Source: Dioscorea cayenensis subsp. rotundata (lineage: Eukaryota; Streptophyta; Magnoliopsida; Dioscoreales; Dioscoreaceae). From it: DNA of 64,000 nt. Under the pieces are notes generated by a model, which saw only the letters and a list, made by a program, of their open reading frames with translations, was not told where the DNA came from and did not search any database. A program made the position numbers and the translations under genes. Location: contig NC_052475.1 of the NCBI RefSeq assembly GCF_009730915.1, positions 28,457,016 through 28,521,015 of the forward strand. The letters run 5' to 3'. This document shows, one piece after another, positions 3,252 through 49,603 of the stretch; positions within the stretch are counted from its first letter, which is position 1, and every line of letters starts with the position of its first letter.

Positions 3252-4109
3252 GTCTCATGTTTTCTTGTTTGGCGCTAATAAAGTAGATAACTACAGATTT
3301 ATTAAAATAAGAAAAATATAGGAAAATACAACAGTTTAAGACAACAAGAAGAATTAAAAATAAAACGGTCTGAAATACTCACCCACCAGAGATGAGGAGA
3401 ACAGTGAACAAAATAATAAAAAAATAGAGAAGAACAACAAAAGTAAGGTAGTAAGCTGGATCGACGAAGGCTACTGTTTGGAGACATAAACCTACCCAAC
3501 AGCAAATAGAAAAGAACTACTCCGGATAAGTTGATTGTTGTTTGGCGTCTGATTGTTGTTTTGTTTATTTTAATATTTGCTTTCAATGTGAGATCACTAA
3601 GATGTATAATTAACTTGTTTCAATAATTAAGTTGTAATTTAAATAGCTAAATTTCAAACTTAAACTACACTATAATAAACTTATTGATATTTTATTTCAA
3701 TAATTGATAACTATTTAAATTCTATTACTGATTTGTCTGTATTTACCAATTAAATCAATTCCTTTCATTTCTAGTTTTTTCTTGTATTTTCTTTTTATGT
3801 ATGTTGTTCCCCTCACTTCTGGTGAGAGAATTTTATTTTTGTACTGTTGCTTCTTTTCTTTTCAATAAATATGTGGTTTATCCACATTTACTTAAAAAAT
3901 AAATAAATCAATAAATATAAAATAATGGTTGTGAGAAATATCTTTATTAAATTAATTATTTTTAAGAGGAGTTGGCAATTGCCATACGTTTCGTCAACAC
4001 AATGATCGATTTGATTAATTTATTAATATGGCTAGAGCCAATTTTTAATATTTTATATAGACGGCATCAGTATAATGATATTTAGATTTTTCAAACCAGA
4101 AAGTATAGA
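3252..4109. other. intergenic, AT-rich
   Basis: Contains the likely polyadenylation region of the UGT gene. A 94-codon minus-strand ORF at 3302-3586 has low-complexity, Phe/Leu/Ser-rich composition and no recognised motif, so it was not called. Nothing else is recognisable. Confidence 0.5.
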
Positions 4110-5327: not shown

Positions 5328-5752
5328 TGGTGGATTTTCAATTATTTGGTTTTTTGGTACTTAAATTTGGAAATTTTGCATTTGGTGGATTTTCAATTAT
5401 TTGTTTTTTGGTACTTTAATTTGGAAATTTTACATTCGGTGGCTTTCAATTATTGTTTTTTTGCTACTTTAATTAGGAAATTTGCATTCGGTGGATTTTC
5501 AATTATTTGTTTTAGTATTTTAATTTGGAAAATTTTCATTCGGTTGTTTTCAATTATTTGTTTTTTTTTAACTTTAATTTGAAAATTTTGCATTCGGTGG
5601 GATTTTCAATTATTTGTTTTTTGGTATTATAATTTGGAAATTTTTTATTCAGTGGATTTTCAATTATTTATTTATTTTTTAACTTGGATATTTTGCATTC
5701 GGTGGTTTTCAATTATTTATTTATTTTTTACTTTAATTTAAAATTTTGCATT
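5328..5752. repeat. minisatellite, about eight units of 50-56 bp
   Basis: A unit built on GGTGGATTTTCAATTATTTG, then a T-run, ACTTTAATTTGGAAATTTT and GCATTC is repeated about eight times head-to-tail. Units vary between roughly 50 and 56 bases, mostly through changes in T-tract length. A 78-codon ORF at 5346-5582 is simply the repeat read in one frame (FWYFNLEI-like cycles) and is not called as a gene. Confidence 0.9.
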
Positions 5753-6500
5753 CGCTTAGTTATTTGTTTTAAGTTAAAGAGTTTTTTTTTTTGAAAATTT
5801 TGACATTTTACTAAATTGATTACTATTATGACCAATCGATCGGTAATGAACTATATATTTTTAGAAATATAAGTTCTTAACTAAATATAGTTTTCAACTA
5901 AGTACAATATTCAAAGGCAAATAACAATCCTAACCTTCGTATTGCGATAATATGCCATTGCCATGAACAAAATGATTTTTTATAGTATAAAGTATTTTGG
6001 GAGACGCGGACATCACCTAAAACCCTCTCCTCTGCATGTCTCTTGAGGTGCCTAATTTTCTCAGTTATCTTTCACGTTGTTGTTCTCTTGGCCCATTTTC
6101 TCAAACTGTCCAGACAAACTCTCTTATGACTTGGAAGGTCTCACCTTCTTCGAATTCTGATGTCCATTCTTTTTAAATGGACGAGCGTTTATCAACTTTT
6201 ATCATAAGATTTAAAAAATAAAAATAAAAAAAAAATCCAAGCATCACAGAACCGGTATAAAGAAAGTGGATAGCAATGGTACACATGTTCAAGTTTAAGA
6301 CCTTAATATATTAGTTGATATTTATACGACAAGCGAAGATAACATCAAGAGCAAACCAATAAAATTTTGTACAGAAGCTCACAAACAACTGTGAAACAAT
6401 AATTACAACAATGTCACTGAAAAGAGATCAAACAACACCTTCAAGTGATATCATTTGATTGCTCTTATGGAAAAGACTCTTCAAAATCTAATCCAAGACT
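5753..6500. other. intergenic between minisatellite and LRR gene
   Basis: AT-rich DNA without a recognised gene. The right-hand part, from roughly 6300, is probably 3'UTR of the minus-strand LRR gene that stops at 6652. Confidence 0.4.
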
Positions 6501-43191: not shown

Positions 43192-46100
43192 CTAGCCAGA
43201 ACTGCAGGGAGATGTACTTCTGGAGTCATCTTGACGACCTTCGGGAGAAACACTACGGGAAGGTGAAGATTTCCCCCGACTGCCATGTTCATCCAGGCTC
43301 GCATCACGAGATAGGGGTGTCCTGCGGGGGGAGGAACTCCTTGAGCTATAGCTACGTCGAGCAGGTGATGCACTGCCAAAGGATTTCATTCTAAAAGGGC
43401 AGGAAGAAACAAAAAAAGATGCACAATAATAGGAGATACTGTACCTGGCAAAGGAGCGGCTCCTGCTCCTTCGGGCATCATCTAACCTGCTTCGACCATA
43501 ATCTCTGTCATAGTCAGGGCTGAAACTGTAACTTTTACTACGATGGTAGTATCTCTCTCGGTCATAGTGCCTGTTACGCTCATATCTTCCTCTGCTTCTA
43601 CTGCGACTATGCCTTCTATAATTTCGATCTCTGTAATCATCCCTATACCTGAAAGCATTGAACAATCATTTAAAAAACAGCGCAAACAAAGATGAATGCC
43701 AGGAAAGAATGTGGCACGCATACTTGACTTCTTCCCTTCGCTTCTTGACAGGTCTTCTATGGAAATTAAATGATATACATGTACTTAGATGCAGCCTCTG
43801 GTTTAATCAACTTAAACGCTTAGCACAAGAAATTTCCTACATTATTCTTTAACACTAATTCATCATGATATACATTTTGTCATGCCAAGATCACCAAAAT
43901 GTGGAGGTTATAATGCAGTGAACATTAGCAGCCACTGCTTTCATGAACCTAACATGCTTTGTACAATGATGTTGTCTTAAACATATCATCTGACATTAAT
44001 GCGCCGGAGCACCAGCAAAGTTGCTTTTGTCAAAACTGGGGCTTTCTTATATATTTAAGAAACCAAAACATAGTCAGTATCATGGATATTCCTGTAACAT
44101 GATTAAGAGCCAAGACTAAAACCATACATGACGCAACTCTTGATAAACACATACAAATATCGAGATTATGGAGTGCCATGTAAGCAATATCGCAGATCTT
44201 AATCTACAAGTTTAAGAAACAAGACTAAGACCCTAGTATGCAACTCCATTCATAAGCACATGCATACATTGAGATTATGGGAGAGTTACATATACAATAT
44301 CGCAGATCTTAATGTAACATGTATAAGATTAATATTAAAACCAAATATGATGCAACTTTCTTCATAAACACATACAACAGAGATTACAGAGAACCACATG
44401 AGTACCTTTCCGATTAGCATAAGCATAAGCAAGAACAAAACAGTGTGATTGAATAGATGTTCTAAGAAGGCAAATCTAACCTTGCTAGAAACTCATAGGA
44501 CCAATAAACATAATTTACTTTCATATTAGTAATTTGCTTTACAGATGTAAAATCAGGTGTGTAAAGGAAATAATATAATGGCAAAATAAAATGCAATTTA
44601 CTCTAGTGCATTTTGCAGCCAAATTTGGTACTGACTCTTTGAGTTCCAAGTCACTTGGTATCAACTTGAAGCTTGAGAAGAAAAGGAAAGTCACAAGAAA
44701 GCTTACCTTGGCCTAGGGCTTCGGCTCCTTGATCTACCCCTTGACCTTGGAACTGCTTCCATGATTCTTCCCTTGTGACTGCAACCAGCAAAAGCTAGTA
44801 CTTTAAAAAATAAATAACTAAATAAATAAATAAGACACAAATAAGGAAAAACATAAACAAGTTCATTCAAGTTTGTTCAACTCCATTCCTATGTACCATG
44901 CTATAATTTAAGGACTCTGGGGTAAGAAGACGATCAGTCTGTTACAAAGTCAATCATGGTGAACATAATTCATTAATAAGAATGGATCAAGTTTATGGCC
45001 ATAGACTACTTTCTTTTCTTTTTTTATAATGTGGACAAGCCACTACGGACACACCCTATTTATGCCTCAACCAAGGCATTGACTTCTGGTAAAGAGCAAT
45101 AATTACTAAAATTAAGCTTCATCCAAGAACAGTTTGTCAGTGACTAACATACCAGCAACACAAGACTTATACATGAAATTGATGTTCTGTGTTGTGGGCA
45201 ACAATTGTAATGTCAAGGAACATCCTGACACGCTCCCCAACCAACCAGCAATTATCTGGAGGCTGTGTTTTAGTGTTGGAGGATGATATGGTCTAGAGGT
45301 TTCAAAATATTCCAAAATGTATTGAGGCAGTTGAAGCCGTTAAGGCTGAACTAAGGCTGAACTGAGAATGGATTGTTGGAGGCCACCAATATTGTGTAGA
45401 AAACTGGTTGTCATATGTTATTTACCTCCAAAGGGCGCCCATTGGCATATTAAAACAATGAACATAGTCACAGACACAATACTGCATTATTTTCAAGCTT
45501 TATACTTTTCCCTGTACACAAACTACAACAACCAAGCACGATGCATAAAAACATAAAAGCACAAGCAAAGCAAACAAAACACAATTAAATCCATCTCAAT
45601 GTCAATTAAACCAAACTTGTGATGGAAGGAGTAAAAAGAACAGACTTAAACTTCTAATTAAAGCCAAAGAAAAATTAATGACATACGTCCGCTCTGCGTT
45701 GGGCCCATACTTTGCAAACTGCACCATAATATTCCGACCATCAACATTCCTTCCTGTAAATCCAAGATTACAAAAAATTCAATTCAAATAACCAAAATAA
45801 CAAAGATGTTCTAAATTTCTAATCAGGTTCAAAACCCTAATAAACAGACACAAAACCGAAAAGAAGCTCACCATCAAGCCTATCAACAGCCTTCTGCGCT
45901 TCATCCGCATATTTGTACCTCACAAACGCGAATCCCCGGGAATCTCCCGTCCTACACATCCAAAACCCCATCAAGGAAAAGAATTTCAACACGAAAAATC
46001 CAAGAGAACACAAAATAAGAAGAAGAAGAAGCAGAGGCTAGTTTCCACTCTCACCTGCGATCCCTTGGAATGAAGACATCAACTACCTTGCCATACCTGT

Positions 46101-46297
46101 CAAAGAGAGGGTAAAGATCGTCCGCCTTTGTCCCTGCCCCCAAATTAATATAGATCACGTCGGAATCAAGAAAAACCAAAATCAAAGGAAGCACGGCGTG
46201 AGAAGAAACGTATGCACTTACGAAAAGTGATGTTGAGAACGAGAAGCGAGTATGTGTCCCTGATGTCAGGCGGCCCTGATCTCCCGAAGTGCGACAT
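43192..46297 (-). CDS. SC35: SR splicing factor SC35 (SRSF2 orthologue)
   Basis: Eight exons, 46297-46222, 46133-46055, 45951-45872, 45753-45687, 44778-44707, 43756-43724, 43648-43445 and 43390-43192, encode 269 residues. SC35 is a nuclear SR protein that binds exonic enhancers and recruits U1 and U2AF. The N-terminal RRM (about 15-95) has RNP2 LLVLNITF and RNP1 RGFAFVRY. It is followed by the SC35-typical VQFAKYGPNAER and then an Arg/Ser-rich tail with RSRSRG, RRSRSRSF and SSSPRRTP runs, ending SPCSSG. The start MSHFGRSGPPDI is nearly identical to Arabidopsis SC35. Exon 6 is only 33 bases and can be skipped in frame; intron 7 is only 54 bases, a multiple of three and without stop. The stop TAG is followed at once by GTAATT, a possible 3'UTR intron donor. 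Confidence 0.94.
44104..44405. repeat. three tandem copies of a ~115 bp unit in SC35 intron 5
   Basis: AATATCGCAGATCTTAAT, AAGACTAA/ATATTAAAACC and GATTACAGAG / GAGATTATGG blocks recur with spacing of about 110-120 bases; the third copy is shorter. The array lies between exons 5 and 6, about 350 bases upstream of the 33-base exon 6. Confidence 0.75.
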
Positions 46298-46299
46298 CT

Positions 46300-46832
46300 C
46301 CGACGCCGGTGCCGGAAAGGAGTGAACTTTAGCGTAGATGCTAGATATGAGGATAGCACTAGGGTTAAGGCCCGGGCTTGGTGCTCAAGGGAAAGAAGCC
46401 TCTGGAAGACGGAAGACGGAAGAGGATCTCACGCAATCCGTCTTTGAATCTATATATATATATATATATTATAAGAAAATTTAAATTTATGAGAATATTA
46501 ATATATAATATACTGATTTTTTTTGAAAAAAAGTGGATAAACGCGTACGTTAAGCGAAAATAAGTCCCGAAAACAACATCCACTGAAGTGGAGCAAAAAC
46601 AAAGTACAAGATAACAAGGTCGAAACAAAATAACATAACAAGACCCCTAACCCACCCAAAGGTTAGGGTCAAAAAATCACTCACTATTTTTACTCGAACT
46701 TTTCTAATTTTCCATTTTTACTTATTTACCTAAAAAAGCCTCAAATTGAAACTAGTAGGTTAATTTGAGTTTATTTTTAAGCCATCTGGTAATTTTTTTT
46801 CGTGACACATGTAAAAAAATTGAAGTTTATAA
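46300..46832. other. SC35 upstream region
   Basis: The first 100 or so bases are GC-richer and probably SC35 leader and core promoter. An (AT)n run lies at about 46451-46470. Further right, no gene is recognised. Confidence 0.4.
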
Positions 46833-47241
46833 TTTTTTTAAGGGAAAATTACTGTTTACCCCTCGATAATTTCAAAACTTCCCAAACAGCCCCTGTGAGT
46901 TTTGCATACCTCAGACAACCCTTCCTTTATTGTTTCACTTCCTTTTTACCCCCTGCATTATGAAATTCCATCATTGCTCTTAAACCTTTTGCATACATTT
47001 TTTCATTCTTTTTCGATTCTTTTTGACGTATCTCGTTTCTTAAGCAGAGCTTTCATTTTTTTTAAACATAGAACTCATTTCTTAAGCAGAGAATTCATTT
47101 CTTAAACGAAAAACTCGGAAACCTCATTTTTTTAAACATAAAACTCATTTTTTTAAACAAAAAAACATTAATATTTAAAGCAGAAAAAACAAATATTTAC
47201 ATGGCAAATTAATCCTGCATATAAAACCAATTAATCTTGGC

Positions 47242-48590
47242 CACTCATACATATTTAAATAGAAACAACGATATTTAAGCACTTTTTTAAACGTTAACTC
47301 AATATATTAAAGCGTAAACATCGATAGTTAAACAAAGACAAACAAGCATATAAACAGAGAACTAATTTCTTAAAGCAGAGCTTATTTTTTTTAAACAAAG
47401 ACCTCATTTTTTTAAAAGCGAAACCCTCATTGAGTAGGGGACATTGAGTATCTCATCGTCGCGATCTCGCGTGAACGCTTGAGTCTTTCGAGCTCCGGAT
47501 CCGGGCGAGCGATCTCGAAGGTGGCGTGCTCGTGTGGGATCTTAAAGGAGAAATCTTTATTAGGCGTTGGCGATCCGGTTGGCGACGTTCCTCGGCGGTC
47601 GGAGTGGTGAGGTCTTCGGTGGCGACGTCCGGATAAGACGGGTCGAACTTGAAACGGAACCATTCTCGATCGCGGAGACCGCAACATGGATAGCAATAGG
47701 GTTAGGGTTAGGGATCATTCCGGGGTTTGGATCCATGGTGCCTAAGTCGGTGACGGGAGCGGAGGGAGGAAGCGGTGCTGAGTGAGGGTTCGATCTCGCC
47801 GTCTTCGTCTTCATCTTCATCGCTCTTCCACTGCCGTCGACCTCATCTCTTTTCATCTTCTTCGTCGTCGACCTCGGGGAAGACCGCATGCTCCTCGTCG
47901 TCGGCGAAGGCATCGAAAGGTTGCACTCGTACATATTTAAATAGAAAACAACGATATTTAAGCACTTTTTTAAACGTAAACGCAATATATTAAACGAAAC
48001 ATCGATAGTTAAACAAAGACAAACAAGCATATAAACAGAGAACTCATTTCTTAAACGGAGAACTCATTTCTTAAACAAAGAGCTTATTTTTTTTAAACAG
48101 AGACCCTCATTGAGTAGGGACATCGAGTATCTCATCGTCGCCGATCTCGCGAACGCTGAGGCCGAGCTCCGGATCCGGCGAGCGATCTCGAGCGGCTCGC
48201 TCTCGTGGGGTCTTAAAGGAGAAATCTTTATCGGCGTTGGCGATCCGGTTGGCGACGTTCCTCGGCGGTCGGAGTGGTGAGGTCTTCGATGGCGACGTCG
48301 GATAAGACGAGTCGAACTCGAACGGAACCATTCTCGATCGCGGAGACCGCAACATGGATAGCAATAGGGTTAGGGTTAGGGATCATTCCGGGGTTTGGAT
48401 CCATGGTGCCTAAGTTGGTGAGCGAGAGCGGAGGGAGGAAGCGGCGCCGATGAGGGTTCGATCTCGCCGTCTTCGTCTTCGTCTTCATCGCCTTCCCCGC
48501 CGTCGACCTCATCTCTTTCATCTTCTTCGCCGTTGACCTCGGGAAGACCGCATGCTCTTCGTCGTCGAGCGAAGGCATCGAAAGGTCTGA
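47242..48590. repeat. two tandem ~682-bp units inside the Mutator-like element
   Basis: The unit beginning CACTCATACATATTTAAATA at 47242 recurs, as CACTCGTACATATTTAAATA, at 47924. Each unit has an AT-rich left half and a GC-rich right half ending near CATCGAAAGG (47911-47920; second copy about 48577-48586). The copies differ by many small indels and substitutions. Confidence 0.88.
47430..47920 (-). pseudogene. captured gene fragment, copy 1
   Basis: On the minus strand the GC-rich half of the first unit looks like former coding DNA: an acidic Asp/Glu-coding zone, then a Pro/Asn-rich zone (MDPNPGMIPNPNPIAIHVAV), then Ser/Pro-rich sequence (SYPTSP-like) and a basic tail. The reading frame is broken by indels relative to copy 2, so only partial ORFs remain (47427-47696, 47560-48030). 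The apparent telomere-like GTTAGGGTTAGGG on the plus strand is merely the Pro-Asn codons. Source gene not recognised. Confidence 0.5.
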
Positions 48591-48618
48591 CCTTTTTCTC
48601 TCGAACATGAAATCCCAT
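48107..48618 (-). pseudogene. captured gene fragment, copy 2
   Basis: Same content as copy 1. One frame (48376-48618) reads an acidic stretch (VNGEEDERDEVDGGEGDEDE), another (48107-48364) a Ser/Pro-rich piece followed by SFKTPRERAARDRSPDPELG and a stop. The two frames are offset, so a single product is unlikely. It could still be transcribed from outside. Family not recognised. Confidence 0.5.
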
Positions 48619-49603
48619 TTTTCATGCAGCGTGATCGTGATTGTGAGCCGCATGCTTTGTCTCACCTGGCCCGATCCAACGCTAGATAAAGAGATTTTTG
48701 GGGGTGATAAATACACGGAAAAAAACTCATTTCTTAAACAGAGACCTCATTTTTTTAAACAAAACCCTCATTTCTTAAACAGAGACCTCATTTTTTTAAA
48801 CAGAAACCTCTTTTCTTAAACAGAAAACTCATTTCTTAAACAGAAAAACTCAATTTTTTTAAACAAAAAAACTAATTTTTTTAAATAGAAAACTCATTTT
48901 TTTAAACAGGGAAACTCATTTTTTTTAAAGCAGTAACCTCATACCTCATATTTTTAAATAGAGCTTTCATTTTTCAAATAGAAACTCATCTGATCTCAAT
49001 GGCATTATAGTCAAACCCCGTCACACTTGCCATAACTTCCCACGCAGGGACAATTTTCAGTCCAAAAAAATTCCAAATTAACTCTATCAATCACTATTAG
49101 ATGTTTGGGGGTTTAAAAAAATCATCGTATTCAAAAGGAAGGGGTTTTTGAGGAGTGCAAAACTAACGGGGTGTTTTTGGCAATATTGCAAACTTACAAG
49201 GTGTTTTTGGCAATTTCCACTTTTTTTAATTGCACAAATTAAAATTGAACAACCTAATATCGATTGACCAAAGACTAGCTTTAAAAAAAAAAATAATATT
49301 AACTCCATTATAATAGATTTTGAATTTACTTAATAAGAAAATGTTTCATTTTCTGAATAATTTTTTTTTAGCTTATGTCCTTCCATTATATGGAATGTTA
49401 TTCATTGGAAATATTTTTATTTTATTTTTTTTGAAAAATATAAGAATTAAAAAATACAAGTTTTTTAATTTCAGATTAATTTAAATTCAAAAAGTAATTA
49501 TTAATTTTCTTTTTTTTAATCGATTTTTTTTTTCCCATTTACGGAGTTCCATCACTTGGTTCGCTTTCAAAGCAGCGGCAACAACGAAGAGGAGAGGGGA
49601 TCG

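Follow-up and report, generated by a model that had tools for sequence, protein, structure and literature searches.

A Pack-MULE family with tandemly duplicated cargo from a GeBP-like gene in Dioscorea cayenensis subsp. rotundata

Background

The window analysed here, a stretch of 64,000 nucleotides from Dioscorea cayenensis subsp. rotundata, holds a Mutator-like element (MULE) whose GC-rich, gene-like interior is present twice in tandem, and the locus thus raises the question of where this cargo came from and how it came to be duplicated. MULEs have terminal inverted repeats, often of about 100 bp or more, and target-site duplications of 8–11 bp, mostly 9 bp, while their non-autonomous members are moved in trans by a MULE transposase. 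The capture and reshaping of genes by Pack-MULEs is an unsettled topic. Here we describe the element, its relatives in the window's own genome (584 Mb), the gene from which its cargo was taken, and the order of events that the copies record.

Results

Structure of the element and its neighbourhood

Delimited by its ends and its relatives, the element is a non-autonomous Mutator-like (Pack-MULE) element of 2379 bp with two cargo units at 46842..49220, exactly where the initial annotation had placed it. It is bounded by the 9-bp target-site duplication TTTTTTTAA at 46833..46841 and 49221..49229, as that annotation had also claimed. As TTTTTTTAA is of low complexity, it would be weak alone, and it is convincing because relatives of the element carry perfect duplications (9/9) too. 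The inverted termini, previously put at about 100 bp, aligned over about 110 bp (5′ repeat at 46842..46951, + strand, and 3′ repeat at 49111..49220, − strand) with a score of 107, which is above all 300 shuffles (55 ± 6, maximum 74).

AT-rich motif arrays were found in both arms. The left subterminal region (47032..47431) consists of copies of a motif of about 20 bp (CTCATTTYTTAAACAGA-like), and its last ~190 bp are part of unit 1; the right array (48722..48942) has a period of ~21 and 10.4 copies by tandem-repeat analysis. Self-comparison recovered the two tandem units with a GC-rich core that had been described at ~682 bp, namely unit 1 at 47242..47921 and unit 2 at 47924..48586 (both − strand), of ~670 bp each and 91% identical over 685 columns. 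Each is made up of ~190 bp of the AT-rich motif region and a GC-rich core of ~480 bp, so that the cargo was indeed duplicated inside the element together with part of the array. Cargo copy 1 occupies 47432..47923, antisense to the + strand of the window, and cargo copy 2 occupies 48112..48586 (− strand); the units meet at the junction GTTG|CAC (47920..47926).

No Pfam match was obtained in the six frames scanned, the longest stop-to-stop frame being 172 aa, and there is thus no transposase inside. A second, internal copy of the family's own terminus was found in none of the elements examined, and the internal repeats are cargo and array.

The element is flanked by two divergent genes and therefore lies within the upstream region common to both. 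The first (49604 onwards, + strand) opens with what is probably the first exon of an Spt4-like gene (PF06093, E = 0.024, below the cut-off), and its probable start codon is ~380 bp from the element end; the other (46051-46428, − strand) would encode an RRM-containing, possibly SR-type protein (PF00076, E = 0.0071, also below the cut-off). Separate from the element, a tandem array was observed at 5329-5754 of the window, with a 54-bp unit repeated in 8 copies at 81% matches.

The family in the genome

The outermost 32 nt of the 5′ terminus are present in 378 genome copies at ≤3 mismatches, and a 32-nt cargo word in 236, with no copies of the backwards control in either case. With the 5′ 199 bp as query, the best 40 of 1306 candidates were scored, and these 40 matches, including the window, showed 94–100% identity. 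We fetched the 20 best-ranked relatives, those nearest to the window in their 5′ end, and proportions of unit numbers among them are biased for this reason: two units were present in 14, one in 5, and one longer unit in L028. A perfect 9/9 target duplication stood at the predicted edge in 17 of the 20, or 18/21 with the window, so that the expectation set beforehand, other copies of the ends with 9-bp duplications, was borne out. The exceptions were L028 (8/9), L018 (none at its true 3′ end) and L023, which is without a 3′ end. At shifted positions, 86 of 5780 control comparisons reached 9/9, in part since numerous flanks consist of TAA runs. Another three elements were picked because each held three cargo words; all of them consist of three units and are bounded by perfect duplications.

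Being multi-copy and at distinct target sites, the element was mobile after the capture. A satellite or an assembly artefact is ruled out by the distinct loci, the target duplications and the occurrence of one-, two- and three-unit forms. The search for empty sites of two other insertions, at which the best 40 of 83 candidates were scored, gave no spanning match.

Several observations on single copies are added here. Insertions into TAA/TTA runs in L011, L012, L013, L016, L026, L027, L077 and L079 suggest a preference for AT-rich microsatellites. Over its last 180 bp, L027 shows only 83% identity to the window copy, and a stretch of differences close to the terminus gives the impression that its 3′ end had been swapped with another MULE terminus. 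In L024, a second copy of the 5′ end (3455-3559, 77% identical) lies 745 bp past the element, which places a related MULE terminus close by. In L078, 58 bp (116-173) match the 5′ end perfectly and are followed by unrelated sequence and, ~1.8 kb further on, by exons labelled by eye as kinase-like; L078 may be either a deletion derivative or another element sharing the end. Two exact cargo words 1344 bp apart at G000:C6:21652684-21654059 are possibly another three-unit copy.

The transposase domain PF10551 is abundant in the genome (at least 150 loci listed of 3312 candidates). No autonomous partner with the family ends was found in 30 of these 150 loci (3.3 kb each, one extended), where all matches were short and weak, the best being 76 bp at 71%. 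The transposase locus L064 was rejected as a partner since its long inverted repeats are its own. The possibility that the cargo is part of a transposase gene was rejected as well, as it had no Pfam match and the 30 loci gave only short, weak matches to the ends and cargo.

The parent gene and the captured stretch

The cargo of L028 has 255 bp extra inside. With this extra stretch as query, 10 loci were obtained, which comprise L028, eight other elements and, on C7, L070, the sole locus of the 10 without either element end (L073 shows the 5′ end only). In L070 a single exon holds an intact frame of 394 aa (1177-2358), whose protein contains a GeBP-like DNA-binding domain in Pfam (PF04504, aa 126-224, E = 1.1e-26). 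Named by this domain, L070 is a predicted GeBP-like transcription-factor gene. The search of its protein against PDB was uninformative, and the cargo frames gave no informative match in Pfam or PDB.

Identity to L070 is 85–91% for the cargo pieces of the window and 93–94% for the short-cargo consensus. Cargo copy 1 corresponds to L070:1171-1504 joined to 1753-1913, and the 248 bp in between, which encode most of the DNA-binding domain, are absent; copy 2 is a GeBP-like fragment of the same kind. Beside the last unit, 48587..48680 (− strand) is a remnant of the parent 5′UTR and upstream flank, at which 48587-48600 matches parent 1155-1168 and 48637-48680 matches parent 965-1007; parent 1115-1154 (40 bp) is missing from it and is retained in some relatives. 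The acidic stretch and the PNPNP motif that had been noticed in the cargo are the N-terminal part of the L070 protein. The initial annotation had called the source of the cargo unrecognised and had proposed a search for a parent gene with introns; the parent was found, but the expected intron was not, there being none in the 394-codon frame. Its reading of the locus as a Pack-MULE now stands on an identified parent along with the element ends and the 9-bp duplications.

Collinearity with the parent extends over 942-1913 in L072 and L077 and over 962-1905 in L076. The captured stretch is therefore ~970 bp and comprises upstream flank, 5′UTR and codons 1–245. At the 3′ capture edge, the parental sequence passes into the element's own CTCATT motif.

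Deletions preceded the duplication

Between these full captures and the short cargo, intermediate states were present. Upstream, L069 and L075 are without parent ~1008-1114 and L068 without ~1020-1114, and in L074 and L071 no alignment was obtained upstream of parent 1115 and 1134, respectively. The short core is without parent 1505-1752 (248 bp), with the break at an imperfect 9-bp repeat; this loss takes out aa ~110-192, which amounts to some two thirds of the domain, and causes a frameshift. Parent 1115-1154 is additionally gone in part of the short elements, including the window. In each of the nine long-cargo elements one unit was shown, and in the 22 multi-unit elements every unit is short, which places the deletion before the duplication. 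Perfect target duplications remain in 2/8 of the long elements (the eight with the 3′ end located or extrapolated), and their decay is consistent with a greater age.

One duplication breakpoint and later turnover of the units

The initial annotation had implied that the duplication inside the element was special to the window copy, which is not the case: all 25 unit-unit junctions in the 22 multi-unit elements share one breakpoint, from GGTTG to CA(G)CTC..TACATATTTAAATA, allowing point changes. L079, the 23rd multi-unit element, fits this junction with more changes, and it was included only in this check and in the 30-element comparison of flank states below. In single-unit elements GGTTG|CACC is found at the right flank and, in most cases, GGC|CACTC at the left, and CAC is thus common to both parental breakpoints. 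The single breakpoint fits one origin of the duplication.

In the unit tree, where just 9 of 51 inner branches had good support, first and last units nevertheless did not form two clades, with 16 and 18 changes against 17.3 each in shuffles. Units of the same element were 93.79% identical versus 92.04% when re-paired, a difference reached in 0/5000 permutations of the 19 two-unit elements; L028, with its split cargo, was excluded from this comparison. Among 30 elements (L028 among the singles), the short and long right flanks numbered 4/3, 18/2 and 1/2 for one, two and three units, respectively, and so elements with and without the 40-bp right-flank deletion are found at each unit number. Taken together, the similarity, clade and flank data indicate that units exchanged sequence and that the unit number changed after the first duplication, for which unequal exchange or conversion between direct repeats would be the simplest reading.

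In the three-unit element L065, cores A and B are 99.2% identical to each other and 94.4–95.4% to C, while whole units show 95.1–95.4% in all three pairs (the start of A being approximated), a pattern that resembles local conversion more than the recent gain of a unit. The comparison of units in L066 and L067 gave no clear recent pair, and recent unit gain is therefore evident in no single copy of the three.

The same data bear on a different course, in which independent duplications arose repeatedly at a CAC site prone to breakage, instead of a single duplication followed by gain and loss of units. Sister units more alike than units across elements, and first and last units without separate clades, are what such a course would also give. 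We consider it unlikely, however, since an identical breakpoint in 25/25 junctions from a microhomology of 3 bp needs a strong site preference, and exchange among existing tandem units accounts for the same observations.

Cargo function and selection

Among the short units, with L028 again excluded, 188 of 670 changes are synonymous versus 193.4 expected from the mutation spectrum, and selection on the short cargo was rejected accordingly. The short cargo evolves neutrally: of 53 short units, 39 carry a frameshift, 32 contain a stop, and 13 remain intact across the first 108 codons.

Three of the nine long elements (L069, L072 and L076) keep the frame open through the whole GeBP-like domain (255–260 aa) and are potential truncated transcription factors on a transposon. 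Their pairwise dN/dS of 0.25–0.41 is suggestive, but the synonymous excess of the three together (33/73 versus 27.2 expected) was not significant (p = 0.09) once the null was matched for base change and CpG, and selection on the intact long copies is not significantly supported. Singly, the matched-null tests gave p = 0.022 for L076 (one of ten rows tested), 0.125 for L072 and 0.975 for L069, which with 3/15 synonymous versus 5.5 expected goes in the opposite direction.

That the captured piece is functional, as a truncated GeBP-like protein made by long-cargo elements or a regulatory RNA made by the units, and was retained with the aid of selection, would agree with the three open frames, their dN/dS and the single result of L076; we regard it as improbable in view of the joint test, the opposite direction of L069 and the neutrality of the short units. 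A regulatory RNA effect on the parent gene is possible. The best reading is that the cargo would be a passive passenger.

Discussion

Proposed history of the family

We propose a joint history of capture, deletions, tandem duplication, spread and unit turnover with a passive cargo, to which we give a probability of about 0.85. A non-autonomous Mutator-like element took ~970 bp of a single-exon GeBP-like-domain gene, with ~235 bp of upstream sequence and 5′UTR followed by codons 1 to ~245. Once in the element, this cargo lost sequence upstream of the start codon and the 248 bp that encode most of the DNA-binding domain, and a segment of AT-rich subterminal array and shortened cargo was then tandemly duplicated at the CAC microhomology, most likely by break or gap repair or by replication slippage tied to transposition. 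The element spread widely, which would have taken mobilisation in trans by a MULE transposase, and later unequal exchange or conversion between the direct repeats may have given one, two or three units and partial homogenisation.

Short shared sequences of 3 to 9 bp were found at the edges of the domain deletion, the duplication and the 3′ capture. The available part of PMC8277862 describes gap-filling or template-switching models in which such sequences are expected, and those at our edges lend these models slight support; the 3-bp microhomology hints only faintly at any one repair route.

It is very improbable that the tandem structure came from insertion of one element into another, or from tandem insertions re-mobilised together, a route which PMC8903248, in the part available, proposes for Pack-TYPE capture in rice and maize. 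At the unit-unit junctions the cargo joins the AT-array directly, with no terminal inverted repeat or target duplication, and nested insertion was rejected as no element ends are present there. The reverse direction, with the C7 gene built from the element, is hardly credible: similarity by itself gives no direction, but the gene has a complete frame (394 aa) that runs ~450 bp past the shared part and has no element ends, the elements carry only a truncated, mostly decaying part, and the PF04504-type domain is present at 19 places, namely the C7 gene, 8/9 long-cargo elements and 10 other loci.

A single genome holds the intact donor gene side by side with captures of full length, intermediates of the deletions and forms with one, two or three units, so that the order of events is readable and testable. 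As cargo and subterminal motifs were copied as one unit, the effect of motif number on amplification is directly testable. Perhaps, although we hold it doubtful, the captured piece is now an expandable, minisatellite-like internal repeat whose number of units goes up and down from copy to copy, and the multi-unit state aids spread, for instance through additional subterminal transposase-binding motifs or through small RNAs that silence the parent. If so, the window would show a single moment in the conversion of a host regulator into a mobile tandem repeat by a transposon.

Comparison with known systems

The features expected of a MULE, inverted repeats and 9-bp duplications (18/21), are present, and so are those of a Pack-MULE, a host-gene interior with its parent, no transposase and multi-copy mobility. 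With the Pack-MULEs of rice, maize and other plants the family shares the inverted ends, 9-bp duplications, lack of a transposase, GC-rich captured 5′ gene part, unlinked intact parent and multiple copies. It differs from them in that the cargo is present in one to three tandem units with one breakpoint, the array is included in each unit, and the unit number varies among copies. MULEs are known to capture GC-rich sequence and to insert close to the 5′ ends of genes (PMC4858842, in the part available). Among the literature matches listed, at which subscription papers were mostly outside the scope, we found no Pack-MULE with a GeBP gene, in Dioscorea, or with a tandemly duplicated cargo and subterminal array.

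Several copies of the family lie in TAA/TTA runs, as do the microsatellite-targeting SaTar MULEs, many of whose insertions are without a target duplication in the accessible portion of PMC5907723, in contrast to the perfect 9 bp in 18/21 here. Animal Pack-TIR elements, with their gap-filling/FoSTeST models, share breakpoint microhomology, multi-copy spread and high-GC cargo, but they belong to animal TIR families, and variable tandem cargo units are not seen in the part of PMC8277862 at hand, where tandem duplications are mentioned for FB4 elements. The nearest structural precedent found is the MULEs with tandem terminal repeats, including tomato PM-ZIBP (Ferguson and Jiang 2012, PMC3310237, from the sections available), which share an internal duplication in a gene-carrying, then amplified MULE and for whose origin slippage between repeats is discussed. 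There the terminal repeats are duplicated; here duplicated terminal inverted repeats are absent, these being single, and it is the cargo and subterminal array that are duplicated. The element is thus ordinary in kind, with good support, and its record of capture, truncation, duplication and turnover is unusually complete; what is new here is a Pack-MULE with expandable cargo.
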